A stretch of DNA of 40,871 bases from Candidatus Helicobacter avistercoris (GTDB taxonomy: Bacteria; Campylobacterota; Campylobacteria; Campylobacterales; Helicobacteraceae), in the NCBI GenBank assembly GCA_019115525.1, contig DXDJ01000068.1, positions 1-40,871 of the forward strand, given 5' to 3'. Shown piece by piece: positions 16,757 through 27,260 of this stretch (position 1 is the first letter of the stretch; the number at the start of each line of letters is the position of its first letter). The notes beneath the pieces are model-generated. The model searched no databases, was not told the DNA's origin, and saw nothing but the letters and a program-made list of their open reading frames with translations. The position numbers and the translations under genes are program-made.

Positions 16757-19594
16757 ATGCTAAAATCACTCTTAAAAGTTCTACACACACTCCATCTTAT
16801 GGGGTTTGCAAAAAAGCTAACACAAAATTCTAAGTTTAACTCTTTTTTGAAACTCGCCTTTGCTTCCATGTGGGTTGCAATCCCTCTTACAGCTTTTTAT
16901 GCTATTGCTTGTGCTGTTGCCACTTTCATCGAAAATGACTATGGGACTCCTACGGCAAAAGCACTTGTATATTCAACTGGCTGGTTTAGTTTTTTGCATG
17001 CTTATTTATTGGTTGTTTTGATTGGATGTTTGATTACTTCTAAAGCATGGCAGAGAAAGAAGTATTCTAGTCTTCTTTTTCACTCTTCTCTGATTTTTAT
17101 CATCCTAGGTGCTGGGATTACTAGATATTATGGATTTGAAGGGGTAATGCATATTCGTGAGGGCGAGAAAAGCAATTTTATTTCTAGCACAGAAACCTAT
17201 ATCAATATCAAAATGACAGATTCTCAAGGAGAGAGTCAAACACAGGCTGTTTTGGCAAATCTCATTAGTGGGGAAACACTCCAAACTCAACTTGAATTTT
17301 TTGGAAAACCTCTAAAAATCAATGTCCAAGAAATAAGCAAGCTCTCCCTTGACAAAAGAGATCCAACCTCCAAAATGCTTCTAAATCTCACTTACAACAA
17401 CAATCCCGCAGAGCTTGAACTCATTGGTGGTGTAGGGATTGAGGGTCAACCTGTGATGATTGAGGGAGATGGGGTCAAAATCTTTGTATCATGGGGCGTT
17501 AAGCGACTTGTTCTCCCCTTTGCACTCCGATTGGTCAATTTCCAGCTTGATCGCTATCCTGGATCGATGAGTCCCTCCTCCTATGCTTCAGAAGTTGAGA
17601 TTATTGATGATGAGGCAAAGATTTTGAGCAAACCTTTCAAAATCTTTATGAACAATGTTCTTGATTATGGTGGTTATCGTTTCTTCCAAAGCTCTTATGA
17701 TCGTGATGAGCAAGGCACCATCCTCTCTGTAAATAATGATCCTGGAAAAAACATCACTTATTTTGGCTATGGCTTGCTTATCCTTGGGGCAATCTTCTTG
17801 CTTTTGGATCCAAGAGGAAGATTTGGAAAACTAGGAGGATTTTTGCAACAGCAAAAAATCTTCTCCATTCTTTTTGTTGCACTGATGGCTCTTTCACTCC
17901 AACATCCTGCTTATGCAACAACTCAAGAATCTCAGCTTCACTCTATGCAAGAGAGTCTTCAAAAATTCAAAGAAAGAACCAAGGATTTTTCAAAAGACTT
18001 TGAACGCGTATTAGTGCAAGATTTTGGTGGGCGTATTAAGCCTCTTAACGCCCTAGCTACGGATCTCATCCATAAAATCACAAAAAAGGATGGCTTCTTA
18101 GGGATGAGCAATACTCAAGTCTTCTTAGGAATGACTATGCAACCTCAAGAATGGCAATTGCTCAAAATGGTAAAAATCTCAAATCCTGCACTCAAAAAAC
18201 TCTTAGGAGTCCCTCAAGATGCAAGCTATATTGCCTTTCAAGATGTATTCTCCAATGGCACTTATATCCTCCAAAACTATGTAGAAGATGCCAACAACAA
18301 AAAACCTTCCATGCGAAACACATTTGATAAGGATGTAATCGCTGTGGATGAGAGAATCAATCTTGCATATCTCATCTATACAGGAGAAATGTTCAAATCT
18401 TTCCCAACAGCAACAGATCCCAATCGCTGGGCACAACCGCTTGAAGCTATCCAAAATGCAATCAATAGCAATCACAAAACTCAAGCACAAGAGGTTGCAT
18501 CAATTATCCAAAGCCTTTATAAGGGAATCAATCAAGGCCTTACTCTTGAGCAATGGCAAGAGGCAAACAATGCCCTCCTAGCAATCAAGGCATACCAAAA
18601 CAAATACAGCCCCAACCTTGTAATCTCAGAAAGCAAGATTGATTCAGAAATTTTGCTCAACAAAATTAATTTCTTCCGCTATCTGATTGTTCCTTTTATT
18701 CTTGTTGGTGTTGTTTTGTTTCTTATTACACTTGTTTATATTCTTAGAAACCAAAAAATGCCCTCAAAAATCAATCTCTTCTTTTGGATTTCTCTAAGTG
18801 CATTAACGCTTCTGCAAACCCTCGCCCTTGCTCTTAGATGGTATATTAGCGATCATGCCCCTTGGAGCAATGCCTATGAGTCAATGCTCTACATCGCATG
18901 GGCTTCAGCTATGAGTGCGGTGTTCTTCTTTAGAAAAAGCAATTTAGCAATCTCTGCTTCCTCATTCCTTGCGGGTATCTCACTTTTTGTAGCAAATCTG
19001 GGATTTATGGATCCACAAGTAAGTAATCTTGTCCCCGTGCTCAAATCCTACTGGCTCAATATCCATGTATCAATCATTACTGCAAGTTATGGATTTTTGG
19101 GGCTTTGCTTTGTGCTTGGTGTTATTACACTTCTGATGTTTATTCTTAGAAATGAAGACAAAAAAAATATCGATAGTGCTATCCTCTCTTTGAGTGCGAT
19201 CAATGAGATGGCTATGATTATCGGACTTTTGATGCTCACTGTTGGAAACTTCCTAGGGGGTGTATGGGCCAATGAATCTTGGGGAAGATATTGGGGATGG
19301 GATCCAAAAGAGACTTGGGCACTTATCTCAATCTGTGTGTATGGAATCATCTTGCATATCAGATTTTTGGGTATCAAAAATCTCCCTTATGTCTTTGCAA
19401 CTGCAAGTGTTGTAGGATTTTTCTCTATCCTTATGACTTACTTTGGAGTAAATTACTATCTCTCAGGAATGCACTCTTATGCTGCTGGAGATCCACTCCC
19501 TATTCCGATGTTTGTCTACTTCCTTGTAGGGGGAGTAATCGCACTCATTGCCATCTCTTTCTACAAGAGAAAGCTCTCTTTCCCTAAACTTTAG
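16757..19594 (+). CDS. ccsBA: cytochrome c biogenesis protein CcsBA (ResB-ResC fusion)
   Basis: System II cytochrome c synthase that exports haem and attaches it covalently to CXXCH of apocytochromes. The 945-aa fusion is typical of Campylobacterota. The N-terminal half is ResB-like with helices near residues 25-50, 75-95 and 97-115 plus a large periplasmic domain. The C-terminal half is ResC/CcsA-like with many helices and the tryptophan-rich WWD motif (GVWANESWGRYWGWDPKETWA, residues about 835-856) that binds haem. External histidines flank it, such as LNIHVSI and SGMHSY. Translation begins directly after the lipoprotein stop. The TAG stop donates the first G of an 11-G run. Confidence 0.95.
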   Translation: MLKSLLKVLHTLHLMGFAKKLTQNSKFNSFLKLAFASMWVAIPLTAFYAIACAVATFIENDYGTPTAKALVYSTGWFSFLHAYLLVVLIGCLITSKAWQRKKYSSLLFHSSLIFIILGAGITRYYGFEGVMHIREGEKSNFISSTETYINIKMTDSQGESQTQAVLANLISGETLQTQLEFFGKPLKINVQEISKLSLDKRDPTSKMLLNLTYNNNPAELELIGGVGIEGQPVMIEGDGVKIFVSWGVKRLVLPFALRLVNFQLDRYPGSMSPSSYASEVEIIDDEAKILSKPFKIFMNNVLDYGGYRFFQSSYDRDEQGTILSVNNDPGKNITYFGYGLLILGAIFLLLDPRGRFGKLGGFLQQQKIFSILFVALMALSLQHPAYATTQESQLHSMQESLQKFKERTKDFSKDFERVLVQDFGGRIKPLNALATDLIHKITKKDGFLGMSNTQVFLGMTMQPQEWQLLKMVKISNPALKKLLGVPQDASYIAFQDVFSNGTYILQNYVEDANNKKPSMRNTFDKDVIAVDERINLAYLIYTGEMFKSFPTATDPNRWAQPLEAIQNAINSNHKTQAQEVASIIQSLYKGINQGLTLEQWQEANNALLAIKAYQNKYSPNLVISESKIDSEILLNKINFFRYLIVPFILVGVVLFLITLVYILRNQKMPSKINLFFWISLSALTLLQTLALALRWYISDHAPWSNAYESMLYIAWASAMSAVFFFRKSNLAISASSFLAGISLFVANLGFMDPQVSNLVPVLKSYWLNIHVSIITASYGFLGLCFVLGVITLLMFILRNEDKKNIDSAILSLSAINEMAMIIGLLMLTVGNFLGGVWANESWGRYWGWDPKETWALISICVYGIILHIRFLGIKNLPYVFATASVVGFFSILMTYFGVNYYLSGMHSYAAGDPLPIPMFVYFLVGGVIALIAISFYKRKLSFPKL

Positions 19595-19604
19595 GGGGGG
19601 GGGG
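19594..19604. repeat. poly-G tract, 11 G
   Basis: Eleven consecutive G residues beginning with the last base of the ccsBA stop codon. It is outside coding sequence, about 53 bp before the -35 box of the restriction-modification gene. G-tracts of this length are hypermutable in Helicobacter and often phase-variable. Here a change in length cannot alter a reading frame, but could alter transcript folding or stability. Confidence 0.95.
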
Positions 19605-19723: not shown

Positions 19724-22486
19724 ATGTCAAATATTTTAAAAAACTACCTTGAAAAGATTAAAACCATCACGACCAAAGATAAAGAACACACCCACAGAAC
19801 CGCATTGCAACTCCTTCTAGAATCCCTTGCTGACAATTACTCAAATACCAAATCCAAGATTCATATCATTCACGAACCCAATAACGACAAAGAAGGTAGA
19901 GGAGCACCTGATTTTTTAGTCACACAACACTCTCTTACTCTAGGCTATATCGAAAACAAAAGACTTGATAGCAATCTTGATGAAATCGCTCAAAGTGAGC
20001 AAATCCTCAAATACACAAAACTAAGTCCAAATATTGTTTTGACTGATTATCTAAACTTTTGCCTTATTCGACTTGATGAAAAACACAACCCCTACATCAT
20101 CAAGCATTTTAGAATCTGCTCCTCTGATGAAATCGCAAAAATCCTCAAATATGAAGAAATTCTCAGAGAAAGAGAAGAGCAACTCTTGGAAATTTTTTCT
20201 ATCTTTTTCTCTTACGCACCTACATCTATCACCACAGCAAAGGACTTTTCAGATAGACTAAGCCTTAGAGCCAAACTTCTAAAAGATGAGCTTCTTTCAC
20301 TCCCCACAGACCAAACAGTGGCAAGTTTATTTAATACCTTTAGAGATGTGCTTTACAAAGAACTTTCATTCCAAGACTTTTGCGATAGCTTCGCTCAATC
20401 CCTCACATACAGCCTATTTCTTGCCAAGCTCAACAACGCAAAAAACACTCCTATCAATCTCTACAATGCCAAAAGCTTCATCCCCAAATCTTTCCCTCTC
20501 ATTCGTGCAATGAGTGGATTTCTTGATCAGCTTGAAGACCTTGATGGTGTGAAGTGGCTCATTGAAGAGATTATCGCCATTATCAACCATATTGACATCC
20601 AAACCATTATCAAACAACTCAATAAAATCAGTGAGAGAAATCTCTTTGGAGAATATATTCACAAAGACCCTTATCTCCACTTTTATGAAACTTTTCTAAC
20701 CTCTTATGATCCAAAGCTTAGAGAACTTAGAGGAGTGTATTACACCCCAGCCCCAGTGGTAGATTTCATCATCAACTCCATTGATTTGATTCTCAAAAAA
20801 ACTTTTTCTCAAAAAGAGGGATTGTCCTCAGCACTCACAAACGAGAAAATCACACTTCTAGACTTTGCCACAGGGACAGGGACATTTCTACTAGAAGCCT
20901 TTAGAAAAGCACTCAACCCCATTTCCAAAAATAGCCCAAAATATGCTCCAAAAAATCTTCTCCCTAGATTTTGTGGGTTTGAATTTCTTACAGCCCCCTA
21001 CACTATCGCTCATCTCAAGCTCTCTCAAACTTTCAAAGAAGAGTTTAGTTCTCCTCTTGAAGACCACGAGCGACTAAATATTACTCTAACAAATACACTT
21101 TATAATCTCAAGACTTCCTATGAAAAAAATTCAAAAAGTCATCTCTTTGTAGGAATGATTCAACTTGAGGATGAATACCAAAAAGCCCAATCCATTAAAG
21201 AGCAAGAAATCCTCATCATTACAGGAAATCCGCCCTATAGTGGAGCAAGTGGAAATAAAGGACTTTTTGAGTATGAAGTAAGAACCTCTTATGGACTTGA
21301 ACCCTCTATGCAAACTCTTGATGAATCCCAAGCTAAAGAGCTTCAAAGTAATATTACACAATATTACAGACTAAGAGATGAGCCAGAATATCAGTTAAAC
21401 ACGGATTTCAAAAAGGCAGTTAAGTTTCTTGATGGGCTCATCAAAGCACGAAAACTCCAAAATGAGAAAAACCCCAAATGGTTGCTTGATGATTATGTGA
21501 AATTTATCCGCTTTGCCGAATCCAAAATCGCCTCTCAAGATAGTGGGATCTTTGCTTTTATCTCAAATAATGGATTTTTAGACAATCCCACATTTAGGGG
21601 GATGAGATATGCTCTAATGCAGACTTTTGACACGATGTATGTCCTTGATTTACACGGTAATGCACGCAAGAAAGAAAAAGCCCCCAATGGAAGCAAGGAT
21701 GATAATGTCTTTGATATTATGCAAGGAGTGAGTATCAATATCTTTATCAAATCTCCCAAAAAGTCAAAAGCTCCTCAAATCTTTCACTATGATCTTTTTG
21801 GAAAACGCAAAGATAAATACCAATTCTTGCTAGAAAATTCTCTTGAAAGCATTCCTTGGACTTCCCTCACACCTCAAGAACCCCACTATCTTTTTATCCC
21901 TCAAGATGAGAACCTAAGAAAACGCTATGATCAAGGAGTTAGTGTCAAAGACATATTTAATCTTAATGGTGTGGGTATCTGCTCCAAGCGAGATCACATT
22001 GTTTTTCATAACACCAAAGAAGAAATTTTGCAACTTCTTAATGATTTTTCCACAAAACCCAAAGAGGAGCTTTATCATCTCTATAATATTGGAGAGGATA
22101 GTCGTGATTGGAAACTTGATTCTGCTATTACAAGTATTCAGAAAAACCTAAGAGATTTTACCCCCTATATCAGGCAATGTAATTATCGCCCATTTGACAC
22201 CAGATGGACTTACTATATTTCAGAATCTAGAGCTTTTATGGCATATCCAGTCTATGATATTTTTGAGCATTTTCTTGATAAAGAAAATATAGGACTAATG
22301 ATTGGAAGACAATTTGGTGCAGTAGGGAGTGATGAGTTTGACATTGTCTTTTGCACCGATAAGATTGTAGATTTGAATTTCTATCGCAGAGGGGGAGAAC
22401 AAGTTTTCCCTCTCTATCTCTACCCCACAGAAAGAAGCAAAAAGAAAGAACAAACACTATTTGACATAGGGGGGGGGGGGATGTGA
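19724..22486 (+). CDS. single-chain restriction-modification enzyme (type IIG / ISP-like), truncated by G-tract frameshift
   Basis: A 920-aa product in the state sequenced. The N-terminal nuclease-like domain has GAPDF with D63 and ENK with E77/K79, a PD-(D/E)xK pattern. A helical linker leads to an N6-adenine methyltransferase: RGVYYTPAPVVDF near 340, SAM motif DFATGTGTFLLEAF near 382-395, and catalytic NPPY at 502-505. A target-recognition region follows. No helicase motifs are seen, so it is closer to type IIG than to helicase-bearing type ISP. A 12-G tract (22469-22480) makes the frame end in GGGGM then TGA. With 11 G it would join the downstream 177-aa frame for about 1100 aa. It has its own promoter. 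Confidence 0.88.
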   Translation: MSNILKNYLEKIKTITTKDKEHTHRTALQLLLESLADNYSNTKSKIHIIHEPNNDKEGRGAPDFLVTQHSLTLGYIENKRLDSNLDEIAQSEQILKYTKLSPNIVLTDYLNFCLIRLDEKHNPYIIKHFRICSSDEIAKILKYEEILREREEQLLEIFSIFFSYAPTSITTAKDFSDRLSLRAKLLKDELLSLPTDQTVASLFNTFRDVLYKELSFQDFCDSFAQSLTYSLFLAKLNNAKNTPINLYNAKSFIPKSFPLIRAMSGFLDQLEDLDGVKWLIEEIIAIINHIDIQTIIKQLNKISERNLFGEYIHKDPYLHFYETFLTSYDPKLRELRGVYYTPAPVVDFIINSIDLILKKTFSQKEGLSSALTNEKITLLDFATGTGTFLLEAFRKALNPISKNSPKYAPKNLLPRFCGFEFLTAPYTIAHLKLSQTFKEEFSSPLEDHERLNITLTNTLYNLKTSYEKNSKSHLFVGMIQLEDEYQKAQSIKEQEILIITGNPPYSGASGNKGLFEYEVRTSYGLEPSMQTLDESQAKELQSNITQYYRLRDEPEYQLNTDFKKAVKFLDGLIKARKLQNEKNPKWLLDDYVKFIRFAESKIASQDSGIFAFISNNGFLDNPTFRGMRYALMQTFDTMYVLDLHGNARKKEKAPNGSKDDNVFDIMQGVSINIFIKSPKKSKAPQIFHYDLFGKRKDKYQFLLENSLESIPWTSLTPQEPHYLFIPQDENLRKRYDQGVSVKDIFNLNGVGICSKRDHIVFHNTKEEILQLLNDFSTKPKEELYHLYNIGEDSRDWKLDSAITSIQKNLRDFTPYIRQCNYRPFDTRWTYYISESRAFMAYPVYDIFEHFLDKENIGLMIGRQFGAVGSDEFDIVFCTDKIVDLNFYRRGGEQVFPLYLYPTERSKKKEQTLFDIGGGGM
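22469..22480. repeat. poly-G tract, 12 G, frameshift switch in restriction-modification gene
   Basis: Twelve G residues inside the coding region. At 12, the reading is ATA, four GGG codons, ATG, TGA: OFF, truncated. At 11 (or 14), the reading passes through GGA TGT GAA TCA AAA ATG into the conserved C-terminal domain: ON. This is the classic slipped-strand mispairing switch of Helicobacter and Campylobacter contingency genes. Confidence 0.95.
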
Positions 22487-23027
22487 ATCAAAAATGGAGA
22501 ATTTCGCCCCTGATTTTAGGAAAAAAATCGACTCACTCTATCAAGAACATTTTTCCCCTGAAGTCATTTTGGGCTATATCTACGCTATCTTATTTCATAG
22601 AGTGTATAGAGAAAAATATATCGATTTTCTCAAGATTGACTTCCCCAAGATTCCTTTTGTCAAAGACAAAGAGATTTTTCTCTCCCTCAGCTCTTTGGGG
22701 AGCAAACTCATTGCATTACACCTACTCAAAAGCGATGAGTTGGATTCTTCTGTGGGCGAACCCCTTTATGCTGATGTCAAAAATCCCATTATCGAGCAAA
22801 GCAAATATATCCATGGAGATATTTTTGTCAATTCAAGTCTACATTTCAAAAATGTTGATCCAAAGGTATGGGAATACAAAATCGGAGGCTATCAAGTGCT
22901 AGACAAATACCTCAAAAGCCACAAAGGAGAAAAGATTGATTATGAGCATTTTCAAAAAATTATCGCTATTTTGTATAAGTCTTTGGAGACTGAAGAGCAA
23001 ATTTCAAGAATTGATATAGGAGTGTGA
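22482..23027 (+). CDS. C-terminal domain of the restriction-modification enzyme, out of frame
   Basis: Continuation of the same gene in the +1 frame. An internal ATG at 22494 starts a 177-aa open frame: PDFRKKIDSLYQEHFSPEVI, then ILGYIYAILFHRVYREKYIDFLKIDFPKIP, and SLGSKLIALHLLKS. This matches the conserved end of type ISP/IIG target-recognition domains, in which a G-Y-I-Y-A-x-L-H-x-x-x-Y-R block precedes FPRIP. It is unlikely to function alone, and the ATG at 22494 lacks a convincing ribosome site. The stop at 23025-23027 lies just before the GNAT gene start at 23030. When the tract is ON, ribosomes would run to this point and could aid translation of the downstream cassette. Confidence 0.85.
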   Translation, partial: CESKMENFAPDFRKKIDSLYQEHFSPEVILGYIYAILFHRVYREKYIDFLKIDFPKIPFVKDKEIFLSLSSLGSKLIALHLLKSDELDSSVGEPLYADVKNPIIEQSKYIHGDIFVNSSLHFKNVDPKVWEYKIGGYQVLDKYLKSHKGEKIDYEHFQKIIAILYKSLETEEQISRIDIGV

Positions 23028-23029
23028 GA

Positions 23030-24256
23030 ATGAGCGATATCAAATATAAAAAATTTGCAGAGATCAATCTACAAGACCCCTTTTTTGACAATCTAAGAAT
23101 GGATTATCCTGAATTTGATACTTGGTATCAAAAAAAGGCTATGGCAGGAGAATCGGCTTATGTGCTTTATGAAGAAAACAAGCTTGTATGTTTTGTCTAC
23201 CTAAAAATTGAGGACTCTCTTGACACAAATATAATCCCTCCTCTATATCCTACAAGATGGGTAAAAATCGGAACGTTCAAGATTGAGGCTAGGCGTACGA
23301 AACTTGGACAAAGGCTCATCAAACGTGCTTTTGATTTTGCGATCTCTCATAATATTTTCGATCTCTATGTTACAGCCTATGACAAACATGCTGTTCTGAT
23401 TGACATTCTCAAACATTATGGTTTCGTAGAATATGGAAATAAAGGGGGCGAAAAAGTATTGGTAAAACACATTATTTCAAACAATGATCTCCCTACTTTT
23501 TCTGAGGTTTGTGAAAAACTAGAGCAATGCCCTCCAATGCCGCAAGAATTTAACAATCTCCAAATATCACGAAGAAACACCTTGAAAAGATACAGTCAAG
23601 ATATAAAATTTCAACAATGCGTTGAAAACTGTAAGCATTTTTTCTCTTTTTACGAGACTCTTAAGCTCTCGGGGAATCTATCCCTGAATTTTCCAACATT
23701 ATCTGCACGAAACAATAGGAAATACATACTAGGCATATATCCAGAATATCATACGCGTATGTTTTCAGACTCTAAGCTTCACACGGAATCTACTTCGATT
23801 TTGTGTGATATCTCCGAATCAAACAGTATTCACAAGGTTTATATTTCGGCTATTGCCGATACACAACTTCTCCAAAAAGGCGATATTGTTATCATTTATC
23901 GCACCAAAGATGATAATGCCCAGTCAGCAAATTACTCAAGTGTCGCAACTTCACTTTGTGTCGTTGAAGAATATAGATATATTAGTAGCTTCTATTGCGA
24001 AGATGATTTTATAAAATACTGCAAACCTCATAATGTATTTTCTATTGAAGAATTGCAAAGTTTTTACAAAACAAAACGATATCCCTATATTATTAAAATG
24101 ACTTATAATATAGCCTTCAAACGACGAGTTGTTTTAGATAAACTTAGAACTATCATTCCAAATGTATCATATTGGGGCTTTGTTTCCTTGGATGACCAAC
24201 AATTTTACCAAATAATACAGGAGGCGGGAATTAATGACAGCATTATTGTCCATTAA
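23030..24256 (+). CDS. GNAT acetyltransferase fused to a PUA/EVE-like domain
   Basis: A 408-aa protein from ATG 23030, which has AGGAG (23018-23022) 7 nt upstream; a GTG at 23024 is too close to that site. Residues about 1-150 look like a GNAT domain: DYPEFDTWYQKK, then WVKIGTFKIEARRTKLGQRLIK with a degenerate acetyl-CoA loop, and ILKHYGFVEYG. The C-terminal half contains VYISAIADTQLLQKGDIVIIYRT and SSVATSLCVVEEYRY, the G-D-x-V/I-x-Y-R and V-x-x-V-V-E pattern of PUA/ASCH/EVE-type RNA- or base-binding domains. The gene overlaps the ASCH gene and follows the restriction-modification frame by 2 nt. Substrate unknown; RNA-related acetylation is only a suggestion. Confidence 0.7.
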   Translation: MSDIKYKKFAEINLQDPFFDNLRMDYPEFDTWYQKKAMAGESAYVLYEENKLVCFVYLKIEDSLDTNIIPPLYPTRWVKIGTFKIEARRTKLGQRLIKRAFDFAISHNIFDLYVTAYDKHAVLIDILKHYGFVEYGNKGGEKVLVKHIISNNDLPTFSEVCEKLEQCPPMPQEFNNLQISRRNTLKRYSQDIKFQQCVENCKHFFSFYETLKLSGNLSLNFPTLSARNNRKYILGIYPEYHTRMFSDSKLHTESTSILCDISESNSIHKVYISAIADTQLLQKGDIVIIYRTKDDNAQSANYSSVATSLCVVEEYRYISSFYCEDDFIKYCKPHNVFSIEELQSFYKTKRYPYIIKMTYNIAFKRRVVLDKLRTIIPNVSYWGFVSLDDQQFYQIIQEAGINDSIIVH

Positions 24257-24608
24257 GCCTGAATTTGCCGAGGCAATCTTTAGTGGAAAAAAAAAGTTTG
24301 AATATAGAAAAAATATATTCAAAAAAAATGTAAAAAAAATACGAGTTTATGCGACAAAACCTGTAGGAAAGATTATTGGTGAATTTCTCGTAGATGAAAT
24401 CCTTGAGGATACACCAAACAACCTTTGGAAAAGCACCTATAGGAATAGTGGTGTAAAAAAAGAATTTTATATGCAGTATTTTCAGGGAAAAAAAATTGGA
24501 TATGCAATCAAGATTAAAGAATATACACGCTATGATGAGCCACAATGCCCCTACAAGATGAATCCCAAATTTGTAGCACCCCAATCATTTATGTATTGCC
24601 ATGAGTAG
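24234..24608 (+). CDS. ASCH-domain protein
   Basis: A 124-aa protein opening LLSIKPEFAEAIFSGKKKFEYRKN, the recognisable ASCH start (I-x-P-x-(F/Y)-x-x-x-I-x-x-G-x-K-x-x-E-x-R), with KPVGKIIGEFLVDEI and GYAIKIKEYTRYDEP later. ASCH domains are PUA-like folds thought to bind RNA or modified nucleotides, and some hydrolyse acetylated cytidine. AGGAGG shortly upstream and a 23-nt overlap with the GNAT-PUA gene show coupled translation. It overlaps the next gene by 8 nt. The 5' coding region contains A9 and two A8 runs (24287-24339), which may promote slippage. Function is not known from sequence. Confidence 0.72.
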   Translation: MTALLSIKPEFAEAIFSGKKKFEYRKNIFKKNVKKIRVYATKPVGKIIGEFLVDEILEDTPNNLWKSTYRNSGVKKEFYMQYFQGKKIGYAIKIKEYTRYDEPQCPYKMNPKFVAPQSFMYCHE

Positions 24609-25620
24609 TTTTTTAAGAGAATCAATAGTTATTAAATCAACGGCGGAGGTTACGCTAGAAATCCACATTAACCTATTTCTATCTCAAAAGAAATACAAAA
24701 AAGTAGCATTTGAAATGGGGATTTGGGTAAAACAAATTGACGAACAAGTACCTAAACAAACTATCCAAATCATTTTTCCTTTAACAACAGAAAAAAATAA
24801 TGACAAAAAGAATGGAGTGGAAAAAATTGAAGATTTAAGCTCTATGTTTCAAGGCAAGGATAAGGATTTCTCTAGATTAATATTTAATGAAGAGCTAAAG
24901 AGTAATAACGGGATTCTTGAGCTTGATGGTAACCCCATCTCTTTTCAAAAAATTACAGATGAAAGTTTTCCCTCAATTGAAGTTCAAAATGTAAAACAAG
25001 GGAATTATTATCGCTTTAGAATCACTGATATCGCGATAGATAGCTTGATTGTAGAACAACAATGCTCTAGCTTTATTGGAGATCCGATCAAGCGGAGCAT
25101 CAAAACAATTGGTTTTCATATAAACAATGTAAGAAACTTAGGCGAACAAAATATTGATGACAAAAATGAGATCAAGAATGTTTCTTTTGAATGTATCAAC
25201 ACTTTTGTAGTCTGTAATATGGGTGTAGATATTCTTGATAGTATGCAGGAAAAAAGATCTTTCAGAGCTCTTGAAGATCGTGAAGTGTGGGGAGAATATC
25301 TTAAAAAATGTATAGATAAGGATGAGATTTCAAAATCGATTGTGTATCAATTCAAAAAAGAAGAAAAGCAAGATGATAAAAATGATAAAAATGAAAGAAA
25401 AAAATTTAAGAACTTTAAACTTTTTCTTAGATTTTCAGAAACAGAAAACAATAAATGGGGAAGTTTTCTTACAGGTTCAACAATCATAACTTTAGCTTTT
25501 ATCACAAATACTCTTTTTTATCTTGTAACTAACGAGAAGATAATAATCAACGGTATAATAATAGTGTTTATTCTGCTTGCGGCTCTAGTAATGTTTTTTT
25601 ATACAAAATGGAAAGAATAA
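24601..25620 (+). CDS. uncharacterised protein with two C-terminal membrane helices
   Basis: 339 aa, not recognised. About 280 residues are predicted soluble, beginning with FLRESIVIKSTAEVTLEI; a lysine/aspartate-rich low-complexity stretch lies near 258-272. Then come two membrane helices at about 288-309 and 317-335 with a short loop, ending KWKE. No signal peptide, so the soluble part is probably cytoplasmic. The ATG overlaps the ASCH stop by 8 nt. A soluble sensor tied to a pair of C-terminal helices resembles membrane effectors of some abortive-infection systems; this is inference from shape only. Base composition is more AT-rich than neighbouring core genes, suggesting acquisition. Confidence 0.6.
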   Translation: MSSFLRESIVIKSTAEVTLEIHINLFLSQKKYKKVAFEMGIWVKQIDEQVPKQTIQIIFPLTTEKNNDKKNGVEKIEDLSSMFQGKDKDFSRLIFNEELKSNNGILELDGNPISFQKITDESFPSIEVQNVKQGNYYRFRITDIAIDSLIVEQQCSSFIGDPIKRSIKTIGFHINNVRNLGEQNIDDKNEIKNVSFECINTFVVCNMGVDILDSMQEKRSFRALEDREVWGEYLKKCIDKDEISKSIVYQFKKEEKQDDKNDKNERKKFKNFKLFLRFSETENNKWGSFLTGSTIITLAFITNTLFYLVTNEKIIINGIIIVFILLAALVMFFYTKWKE

Positions 25621-25626
25621 AGCATC

Positions 25627-26085
25627 ATGTGTTTACATCAAATGACAACAATCAACATTAAACCTAGTTTTAGTGAAGTAGCTATATATCACTATCTCTC
25701 TGAAGCAAAGCGGTTTTACCCAAACTTTGATTTATGGTATTTCACAAATGTACTCTCCTCTATTGCACGCAAAGAAAAACAAATTCTTATGATACAAGAT
25801 GACAAAGATCTCAAAGGTGTGTCTATCATCAAGAACACTCAAGAAGAAAAAAAAATTTGCACACTTAGAGTTATGGAAAAATATCAAAATCGTGGAATTG
25901 GACTTAGACTTTTTGAAAAAAGTTTTGAGACTCTACAGACACGTTTTCCACTTTTAAGCGTATCCGAAGAAAAGTATCCCGATTTCAAAAAAATCTTTGA
26001 TTACTATGGCTTCAAACTAACTAGTATAAAAGAAAACTATTATCGTATAGGAAAAAAAGAGTTTTTCTTCAACGAAAATCTTTAA
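25627..26085 (+). CDS. GNAT family N-acetyltransferase
   Basis: A 152-aa protein with a normal acetyl-CoA loop QNRGIGLRLFEKSFE (Q/R-x-x-G-x-G) near residues 91-105, preceded by strand TLRVMEKY and followed by FDYYGFKL. Its N-terminus contains FYPNFDLWY, the same YP-x-FD-x-WY signature as the larger GNAT gene at 23030, pointing to a shared subfamily. It begins 6 nt after the membrane-protein gene and ends immediately before the convergent glycosyltransferase stop. No ribosome site is strong; ATG 25627 is the first usable codon and another ATG lies at 25642. Substrate unknown. Confidence 0.7.
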   Translation: MCLHQMTTINIKPSFSEVAIYHYLSEAKRFYPNFDLWYFTNVLSSIARKEKQILMIQDDKDLKGVSIIKNTQEEKKICTLRVMEKYQNRGIGLRLFEKSFETLQTRFPLLSVSEEKYPDFKKIFDYYGFKLTSIKENYYRIGKKEFFFNENL

Positions 26086-27081
26086 TTATGCTTTCACAAA
26101 TCCACCTGTGAGGAAATATACAAATATCCTCACCCCCACTCTTCTATAATCCCTCTTCAACCTAAGAGATTCTAAATACACTCTTGGATAGACAAACCAC
26201 CCCTTTTCAAATCGATTTGCAATAAATGCCTGATACTCCCACATTTTTTGATGTTCGCCAAGTATCTTTTGCACCCTCTGTTTCACCTCTAGATAGTAGG
26301 GATTTTTTTCAGATTCTTTGAGTGTGTCAAATCGATCAAGAGACTTGATGACAAAGTCAAGTTGCGCGCTATTGCGCAGAGCAGTTTGGGAGTTATCGCG
26401 ACTTTTAGTGATTGAAGTAGGATTGTCACAATAAAAATACAATACCTCATCAAAACCGATGCATTTTTGAGCCAAGAGATTGATAACAAAGGATTTAATC
26501 GCATCCTCACCAAGAAGCAGTCTCTGCTCTTCTTTGATCTTGTGTGCAATGATTTCGTTTGCCTTTTGTATCAACTCTCTCTTATAAGCCTTTCCCCATA
26601 TTTCCCACTGGAACATATTGTTTTTCAAAATTTCACACCCCAAAGACACTCCATTGTAGAGTTTGAAAACTTCTTCTTTTTTTGAAAAAAGTCGCTTAGA
26701 GGCAAACCAGCAAATATCTGCTCTGCTCCCTGATTTTTGATATTCACTCTCTAAGGCTTCTTTGATTTTTTCACAAGTTTTTATATCGATAAAATCATCA
26801 GAATCAAGATGAATAATATATTCCCCCTCTGCACACCTCTCGCCAGATATTCTTGCAAGAAACAATCCTAGATTTTTGGGATTTCTTATAATTTTGATTC
26901 TTTTATCCCCTTGGGCATACTCTTGAGCGATTTGTATTGCCTGATCACTTCCACAATCATCCACGACAACAATCTCAATCTCACCAAAACTCTGCTTGAC
27001 ACAGCTCTCAAGACAGCGTGCAATGTATTTTTCTGTGTTATAGACAGGAATAATGATTGAAAACGCAGGAGTTTTTATCAT
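26086..27081 (-). CDS. family 2 glycosyltransferase
   Basis: A 331-aa GT-A fold inverting glycosyltransferase, likely adding a sugar to lipopolysaccharide, capsule or another surface glycan. It starts FSIIIPVYNTEKYIARCLES, then EIEIVVVDDCGSD, and the metal-binding acidic motif LDSDD at residues 92-96. The C-terminal third lacks recognised features beyond a hydrophobic end (VFVYFLTGGF). Its ATG overlaps the stop of the small membrane gene (ATGA). It converges on the accessory island with no intergenic bases. Donor and acceptor cannot be told from sequence. Confidence 0.85.
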   Translation of the reverse strand: MIKTPAFSIIIPVYNTEKYIARCLESCVKQSFGEIEIVVVDDCGSDQAIQIAQEYAQGDKRIKIIRNPKNLGLFLARISGERCAEGEYIIHLDSDDFIDIKTCEKIKEALESEYQKSGSRADICWFASKRLFSKKEEVFKLYNGVSLGCEILKNNMFQWEIWGKAYKRELIQKANEIIAHKIKEEQRLLLGEDAIKSFVINLLAQKCIGFDEVLYFYCDNPTSITKSRDNSQTALRNSAQLDFVIKSLDRFDTLKESEKNPYYLEVKQRVQKILGEHQKMWEYQAFIANRFEKGWFVYPRVYLESLRLKRDYRRVGVRIFVYFLTGGFVKA

Positions 27082-27260
27082 TTGTTTTTCTGAATCTCTT
27101 GGGCTTTTCTCGCCTCTTCTCTTTGCTCTTTATCAATCTGTGCGACTTGATATTGATTGACCCAATACATAATCACACAGATAATAATAATCAGCAAAAA
27201 ATCAATCTTTCTGAGTTTGAATCCTTTGCAGAAAAAACAAGGTTTCTTTTCTTTTCTCAT
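27078..27260 (-). CDS. small single-span membrane protein
   Basis: 60 aa: a basic N-terminus with CFFC (two cysteines, residues 8 and 11), one membrane helix near 20-36 (FLLIIIICVIMYWV), and a charged C-terminal helix rich in Lys, Glu and Gln. AAGGAG lies just before the ATG, and the stop overlaps the glycosyltransferase start by 4 nt, good evidence it is a real gene. It follows the YmdB-like gene by 9 nt. Not recognised; a partner or anchor of the glycosyltransferase is possible but unsupported. Confidence 0.65.
   Translation of the reverse strand: MRKEKKPCFFCKGFKLRKIDFLLIIIICVIMYWVNQYQVAQIDKEQREEARKAQEIQKNK

Follow-up and report, generated by a model that had tools for sequence, protein, structure and literature searches.

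The window (the whole 40,871-nucleotide stretch of DNA analyzed here) contains a gene predicted from its sequence to encode a single-chain Type IIG restriction-modification enzyme of the Hpy99XIV/HpyAXVI family, and we consider it quite probable that this enzyme is phase-variable, switched ON and OFF by slippage at a G12 tract, with the assembled length corresponding to OFF (Table 1).

A G12 tract divides the enzyme gene into two frames

The frame opening at ATG 19724 encodes 920 amino acids and closes at a TGA (22484 to 22486) directly after the tract, and the adjacent frame from 22482 continues for 181 codons to a TGA at 23025 to 23027, carrying GYIYAILFHRVYREKY and FPKIP. The two parts were analyzed as separate sequences; joined, with the last Met of the first part left out, they amount to 1,100 residues, and no further stop or frameshift occurs across these 1,100 codons. 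The locus thus has a repeat of hypermutable type in frame and the remainder of the protein in another frame; the published cut-off for SSR phase variation is a G or C run of 7 or more (PMC6321876). Runs of eight or more G occur twice in the window, with 9 placements observed against 0.18 expected from shuffles. The original prediction, that a 12-G run ends the 920-residue frame at this TGA and that the next frame encodes the rest of the enzyme with both of the above motifs, is borne out in its coordinates, its frames and the joined length. A third frame 3' of the tract (22483 to 22902) is also open, for 139 codons with no similarity noticed, probably by chance.

Table 1. Features of the enzyme locus, in window coordinates.
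Feature	Position	Strand	Evidence
G11 run at the ccsBA stop codon, 3' end of ccsBA, upstream of the enzyme gene	19594..19604	+	
Type IIG N-terminal part: nuclease, N6-adenine methyltransferase, first part of target-recognition domain	19724..22486	+	PF02384, PF18135 1-160, PADLOC
Recognition segment of ~45 aa, type 5	22283..22429	+	segment HMM 60.2 bits, segment typing
G12 tract, proposed phase switch	22469..22480	+	sequence; absent from full-length orthologues
Type IIG C-terminal part, 181 aa, out of frame at G12	22482..23027	+	PF18135 166-320, pN/pS
PDC-M11A, GNAT-like candidate defence gene	23030..24256	+	PADLOC PDC-M11A, E=4e-121
PDC-M11B, ASCH domain	24234..24608	+	PADLOC

The N-terminal part matches PF02384 in a Pfam scan and the PADLOC model REase_MTase_IIG (E=4e-295), and its nuclease signature (P62-D63...E77-x-K79) and methyltransferase motifs D380-F-A-T-G-T-G-T-F and G501-N-P-P-Y (DFATGTGTFL; GNPPY) are invariant across the aligned orthologues, so that the 920-residue form retains both activities' motifs, as had been proposed. 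Two profile matches are divided at the tract: that to PF18135 (Type_ISP_C) covers positions 1-160 in the first part and 166-320 in the second (Pfam scan), and that to PADLOC PDLC03610 (Type IIG, profile length 1096) covers 2-880 before and 887-1064 after. Because both matches continue across the two frames, the tract interrupts a single domain. Nuclease, methyltransferase and recognition domain are all present, on one chain in the orthologues and in two frames as assembled here. A Type ISP enzyme would have an SF2 ATPase between nuclease and methyltransferase; the Pfam scan of the enzyme returned no helicase family that would indicate such a helicase-like ATPase, and its length is 1,100 aa compared with 1,406-1,578. 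The lack of a helicase match leads us to assign it to Type IIG rather than Type ISP, so that of the earlier assignment to type IIG/ISP the first half stands and the second applies to the C-terminal domain alone.

The recognition segment (residues 855-898) lies upstream of the tract and is the sole copy in the window and in its own genome, and a strongly conserved stretch (ENF...GYIYA...FPKIP) lies downstream. The nearest solved relatives are PDB 7LO5 and 7LVV, which we take to be DrdV, together with LlaBIII and LlaGI. A profile alignment places the tract near residue 817 of 7LO5, in the linker separating the recognition strands from the helical domain end. An AlphaFold2 model of the Helicobacter pametensis orthologue (13-sequence alignment) has pLDDT below 50 over residues 842-981, the region of interest.

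The downstream frame is conserved, and repeats occur at many positions in the family

The C-terminal part was matched in 54 of 149 related genomes, and among the 6 genomes examined from the genus the gene occurs in one other, that of H. pametensis ATCC 51478. There one frame of 1,115 codons encodes the whole orthologue, with 68% identity to the part before the tract and 71% to the part after it. The intact orthologues of Campylobacter, Brachyspira and other Helicobacter are likewise single frames with no tract at the window's site. The tract occupies a nonconserved linker (LFD-IGGGGCESKM-ENF versus LFD-KEMEEERV-ENF in H. pametensis). Against the H. pametensis orthologue, pN/pS is 0.200/0.586 before the tract and 0.174/0.749 after it: purifying selection on the downstream frame is strong, and its constraint matches that on the part before the tract (pN 0.174 versus 0.200), in keeping with the prediction of a conserved C-terminal segment. 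The downstream frame is therefore normally translated and preserved at the protein level, which favors regular ON periods over decay. Homologues ending naturally at residue 920, which the original prediction had named as grounds against it, were not found in intact form among the orthologues examined, and full-length single-frame orthologues are present. A linker frameshift in Campylobacter sp. W0018 (L090) was considered as a parallel switch and rejected; it involves a short A run, with a second frameshift near the start, and is treated as decay or sequencing error. A plasmid search returned distant homologues only (<60% identity; Borrelia and others).

Orthologues carry repeats near residues 28-38 (G11-13), 120-155 (G8-11) and 640 (C11-13), and at C-terminal position 82-88 ((AG)8-18, (GACA)24-30, (CATCAGG)12 or G11); H. 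pylori-type loci carry them at 831-851 (C12-14) and past the normal end (C10-20). The window's site is unique among the orthologue repeat sites seen, and the scatter of sites fits a repeated gain of switches. In stretches of sequence sampled from the source genome there are ~45 runs of G10 or longer (119 placements of G10), many of them near gene starts, and at least 5 contigs begin or end within a G run. At L140, around position 2797, a G11 run lies between two long frames of 420 and 410 codons.

The tract most likely acts as a plain ON/OFF switch

We propose that the length of the G12 tract shifts by slipped-strand mispairing, which would move the downstream frame so that the frames would be joined into an active enzyme of 1,100 aa (ON) at every third tract length. 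The assembled length would yield the 920-aa protein, which lacks the helical, conserved half of the recognition domain and presumably neither methylates nor cleaves (OFF); cells would thus be spared self-cutting when the switch flips. To judge from the sequence, the arrangement is most likely a simple ON/OFF switch in its OFF position, since the window copy has a single tract and lacks any additional recognition segment. Inactivity is the likeliest meaning of OFF because the 920-aa form retains the segment yet is missing the conserved stretch. Of the two outcomes first suggested for OFF, inactive or altered recognition, the former is probably correct and the latter much less likely: frameshifts at tract 1 of the H. 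pylori enzymes, in the same domain, abolish activity (PMC3936762).

The tract was read from one genome, a draft assembly of 80 contigs, and the count of 12 may be off by one. An assembly error, with the majority length in frame and the gene ON but still phase-variable, is unlikely, though it is the alternative that we weigh most seriously; the assembly is a draft in which several contigs start or end in G runs, showing that such runs are hard to assemble, but the assembly spans this tract, which lies midway along a 40.9-kb contig. Slippage of RNA polymerase or the ribosome on G12 could instead supply every cell with some full-length enzyme, tuning dose with no switch, and long G runs are indeed known to slip during transcription. 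We nevertheless regard this as quite unlikely, given that the motif of the homologue in H. pylori 26695 is listed only after frameshift correction (PMC3936762) and that leak-through there must hence be too weak to detect.

It is also conceivable, but in our judgment very unlikely, that the 920-aa form is active with a changed specificity, or that the two parts are made separately and assemble, with a restart at ATG 22494, which sits behind a G-rich, ribosome-binding-like run. In favor of such a reading, the recognition segment itself lies upstream of the tract, relatives have the last ~95 residues as a small separate frame next to a stop codon, and C-terminal frameshifts alter specificity in H. 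pylori homologues; set against this, the domain's most conserved part is within the stretch that is lost, and the H. pylori tract-1 truncation in that same domain is inactive until corrected (PMC3936762). A permanently broken, decaying pseudogene would account for the broken frame in the sole genome examined but is extremely improbable, with the other codons undisturbed, purifying selection equal on either side of the tract, and the break exactly at G12 in a variable linker.

The enzyme gene lies in a putative lineage-specific island

The candidate defence pair PDC-M11A and PDC-M11B lies directly behind the enzyme gene, with the PDC-M11A ATG 2 nt past the enzyme's normal stop. The OFF state may thus lower PDC-M11A translation, as the OFF frame stops ~540 nt earlier. 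The closest relative by ccsBA (G003; 82%) has homologous flanks up to ~19,670 (ccsBA) and from 27,087 (ymdB) and carries a different, 494-aa frame between ccsBA and ymdB. We interpret the enzyme gene, PDC-M11A, PDC-M11B and the following genes as a lineage-specific island at about 19735-27087.

The G11 run upstream of the enzyme gene, on which the original prediction is silent, lies ~50 bp upstream of a promoter-like TTGACT-TAAAAT (identified by eye). It was considered as a second switch of the enzyme gene and rejected: the closest relative has a G-rich run, GGGGGAGGGGG, at that site without the enzyme gene, and the run probably belongs to ccsBA. A second ccsBA-like gene elsewhere in the source genome (L125; contig C47, 9540-12235) is 48% identical to that of the window and has an internal TAG.

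Relatives probably carry a three-position specificity switch

Twenty-one genomes, each counted once, have in this gene a repeat, which may be (AG)n, (GACA)n, (CATCAGG)n, Gn or Cn, with two additional recognition segments behind it that occupy different frames (loci L046-L048, L050-L054, L056, L058, L060, L070-L074, L087, L088, L093-L095, L098, L100, L101, L104 and L111). These copies of the ~45-aa segment, A and B, sit behind the repeats at position 82-88 or past the normal end. They are in different frames in 18/18 loci examined, with a frame offset that is constant in the loci with the 82-88 repeat and opposite in H. pylori-type loci. Frame 1 closes 1-5 codons past the repeat; frame A closes after copy A, 48-66 codons past the repeat; and frame B crosses A out of frame and closes after copy B, 91-122 codons past the repeat. 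The B frame is open across A in all 18 loci, compared with 0.2-17% of trials per locus with random synonymous codons, and the remaining frame is closed in all 18, although these loci share ancestry and are not independent trials. L073 has a stop where the stretch assigned to copy A ends. There are two exceptions: H. cinaedi (L096) has one copy only, and in L071 copy A is unrecognized but the frame pattern is the same.

All three current states are found among the 21 genomes. G034 and H. apodemus share 99.8% over the 600 bases before the repeat, yet G034, with (AG)18, reads A and H. apodemus, with (AG)10, reads B; their main and B segments are near-identical, and their A segments are of different types. 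This pair would be explained by a change in repeat length together with cassette exchange, the length difference having been seen for another repeat than the G12 of the window. The two near-identical genes lie at L080:6939-7277 and L095:9057-9387. The segments form discrete types that recur from one position (main, A or B) to another. Nearly all loci have a type 9 segment as B, and the H. pylori-type B frame (91-96 codons) fits the CTRD of 94 aa (PMC3936762). The window's type 5 is shared with the main segments of H. muridarum, H. aurati and Helicobacter sp. 15-1451.

From these patterns we think it probable that a single repeat near or after the gene end acts as a three-position specificity switch in relatives of the window enzyme from Campylobacter, Helicobacter and the H. 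pylori group, with A exchanged between strains. Repeat number modulo 3 would select an immediate stop, the addition of A, or the addition of B, with overlapping frames holding both domains. Alternatively, copies A and B may serve recombination as silent donors. That their open frames are preserved speaks for translation as well, and both may hold. The window copy is a simple one-segment relative of these loci. The openly accessible papers examined on phase variation of Type IIG enzymes, HpyAXVI and Hpy300XI among them, describe ON/OFF switching and one added domain, two of the three states, and contain no description of frame A. After segment B, loci L088, L095 and L096 have the last ~95 residues (C86-179) as a small separate frame beside the B-frame stop, possibly a coupled small subunit.

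Phase-variable Type IIG enzymes alter both the foreign DNA that is cut and the chromosomal sites that are methylated, so they can alter the phage resistance and gene expression of a population. The window and its orthologues have such switches at several different positions of the gene. The arrangement in the relatives is more surprising than the window's ordinary switch: if it is true, a single repeat provides its gene with three specificities with no need for recombination, and the alternative domains encoded by frame are directly testable and could explain methylome differences between isolates.

Comparison with known systems

JHP1272 (Hpy99XIV) and HP1353-HP1354 (HpyAXVI), Type IIG enzymes of H. 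pylori, have two poly-C tracts; a frameshift at tract 1 leaves no activity, and an in-frame tract 2 adds the CTRD, experimentally studied at 94 aa, changing the motif from GGWTAA to GGWCNA or from CRTTAA to CRTCNA (PMC3936762). The window enzyme is 42-52% identical over nearly its whole length to the products of loci L070-L074, which are taken to be of the H. pylori group as judged by their two poly-C tracts and added segment, the published layout. Through these loci it has full-length homology to Hpy99XIV and HpyAXVI, covering nuclease, methyltransferase and recognition domain, and it shares with them a single chain and a G/C tract that breaks the frame within the recognition domain. In those enzymes, however, tract 1 lies before the recognition segment, and tract 2 with the extra segments lies past the normal end, whereas the window gene has one poly-G tract, after the segment, with one segment and neither a second tract nor a CTRD in the window and genome.

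The other likenesses are partial. Cj0031 of Campylobacter jejuni NCTC11168 is a phase-variable Type IIG enzyme with demonstrated ON/OFF methylation whose gene is likewise divided into two frames by a poly-G tract (PMC4889913), but it is reported to be a homologue of CjeFV, placed in a separate Type IIG family by PMC3936762. The DrdV-type structures 7LO5 and 7LVV are the best solved relatives, with a profile match that spans the methyltransferase and recognition domains but starts past the nuclease domain, and the record describes no phase-variable tract. LlaGI and LlaBIII (PDB 5FFJ and 4XQK; Type ISP) share the methyltransferase and the C-terminal recognition domain Type_ISP_C but are 1,406-1,578 aa long, with an SF2 ATPase that the window enzyme is missing. 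It is well supported that the window gene is an added member of a known switchable family, outside H. pylori and with its tract at a new site.
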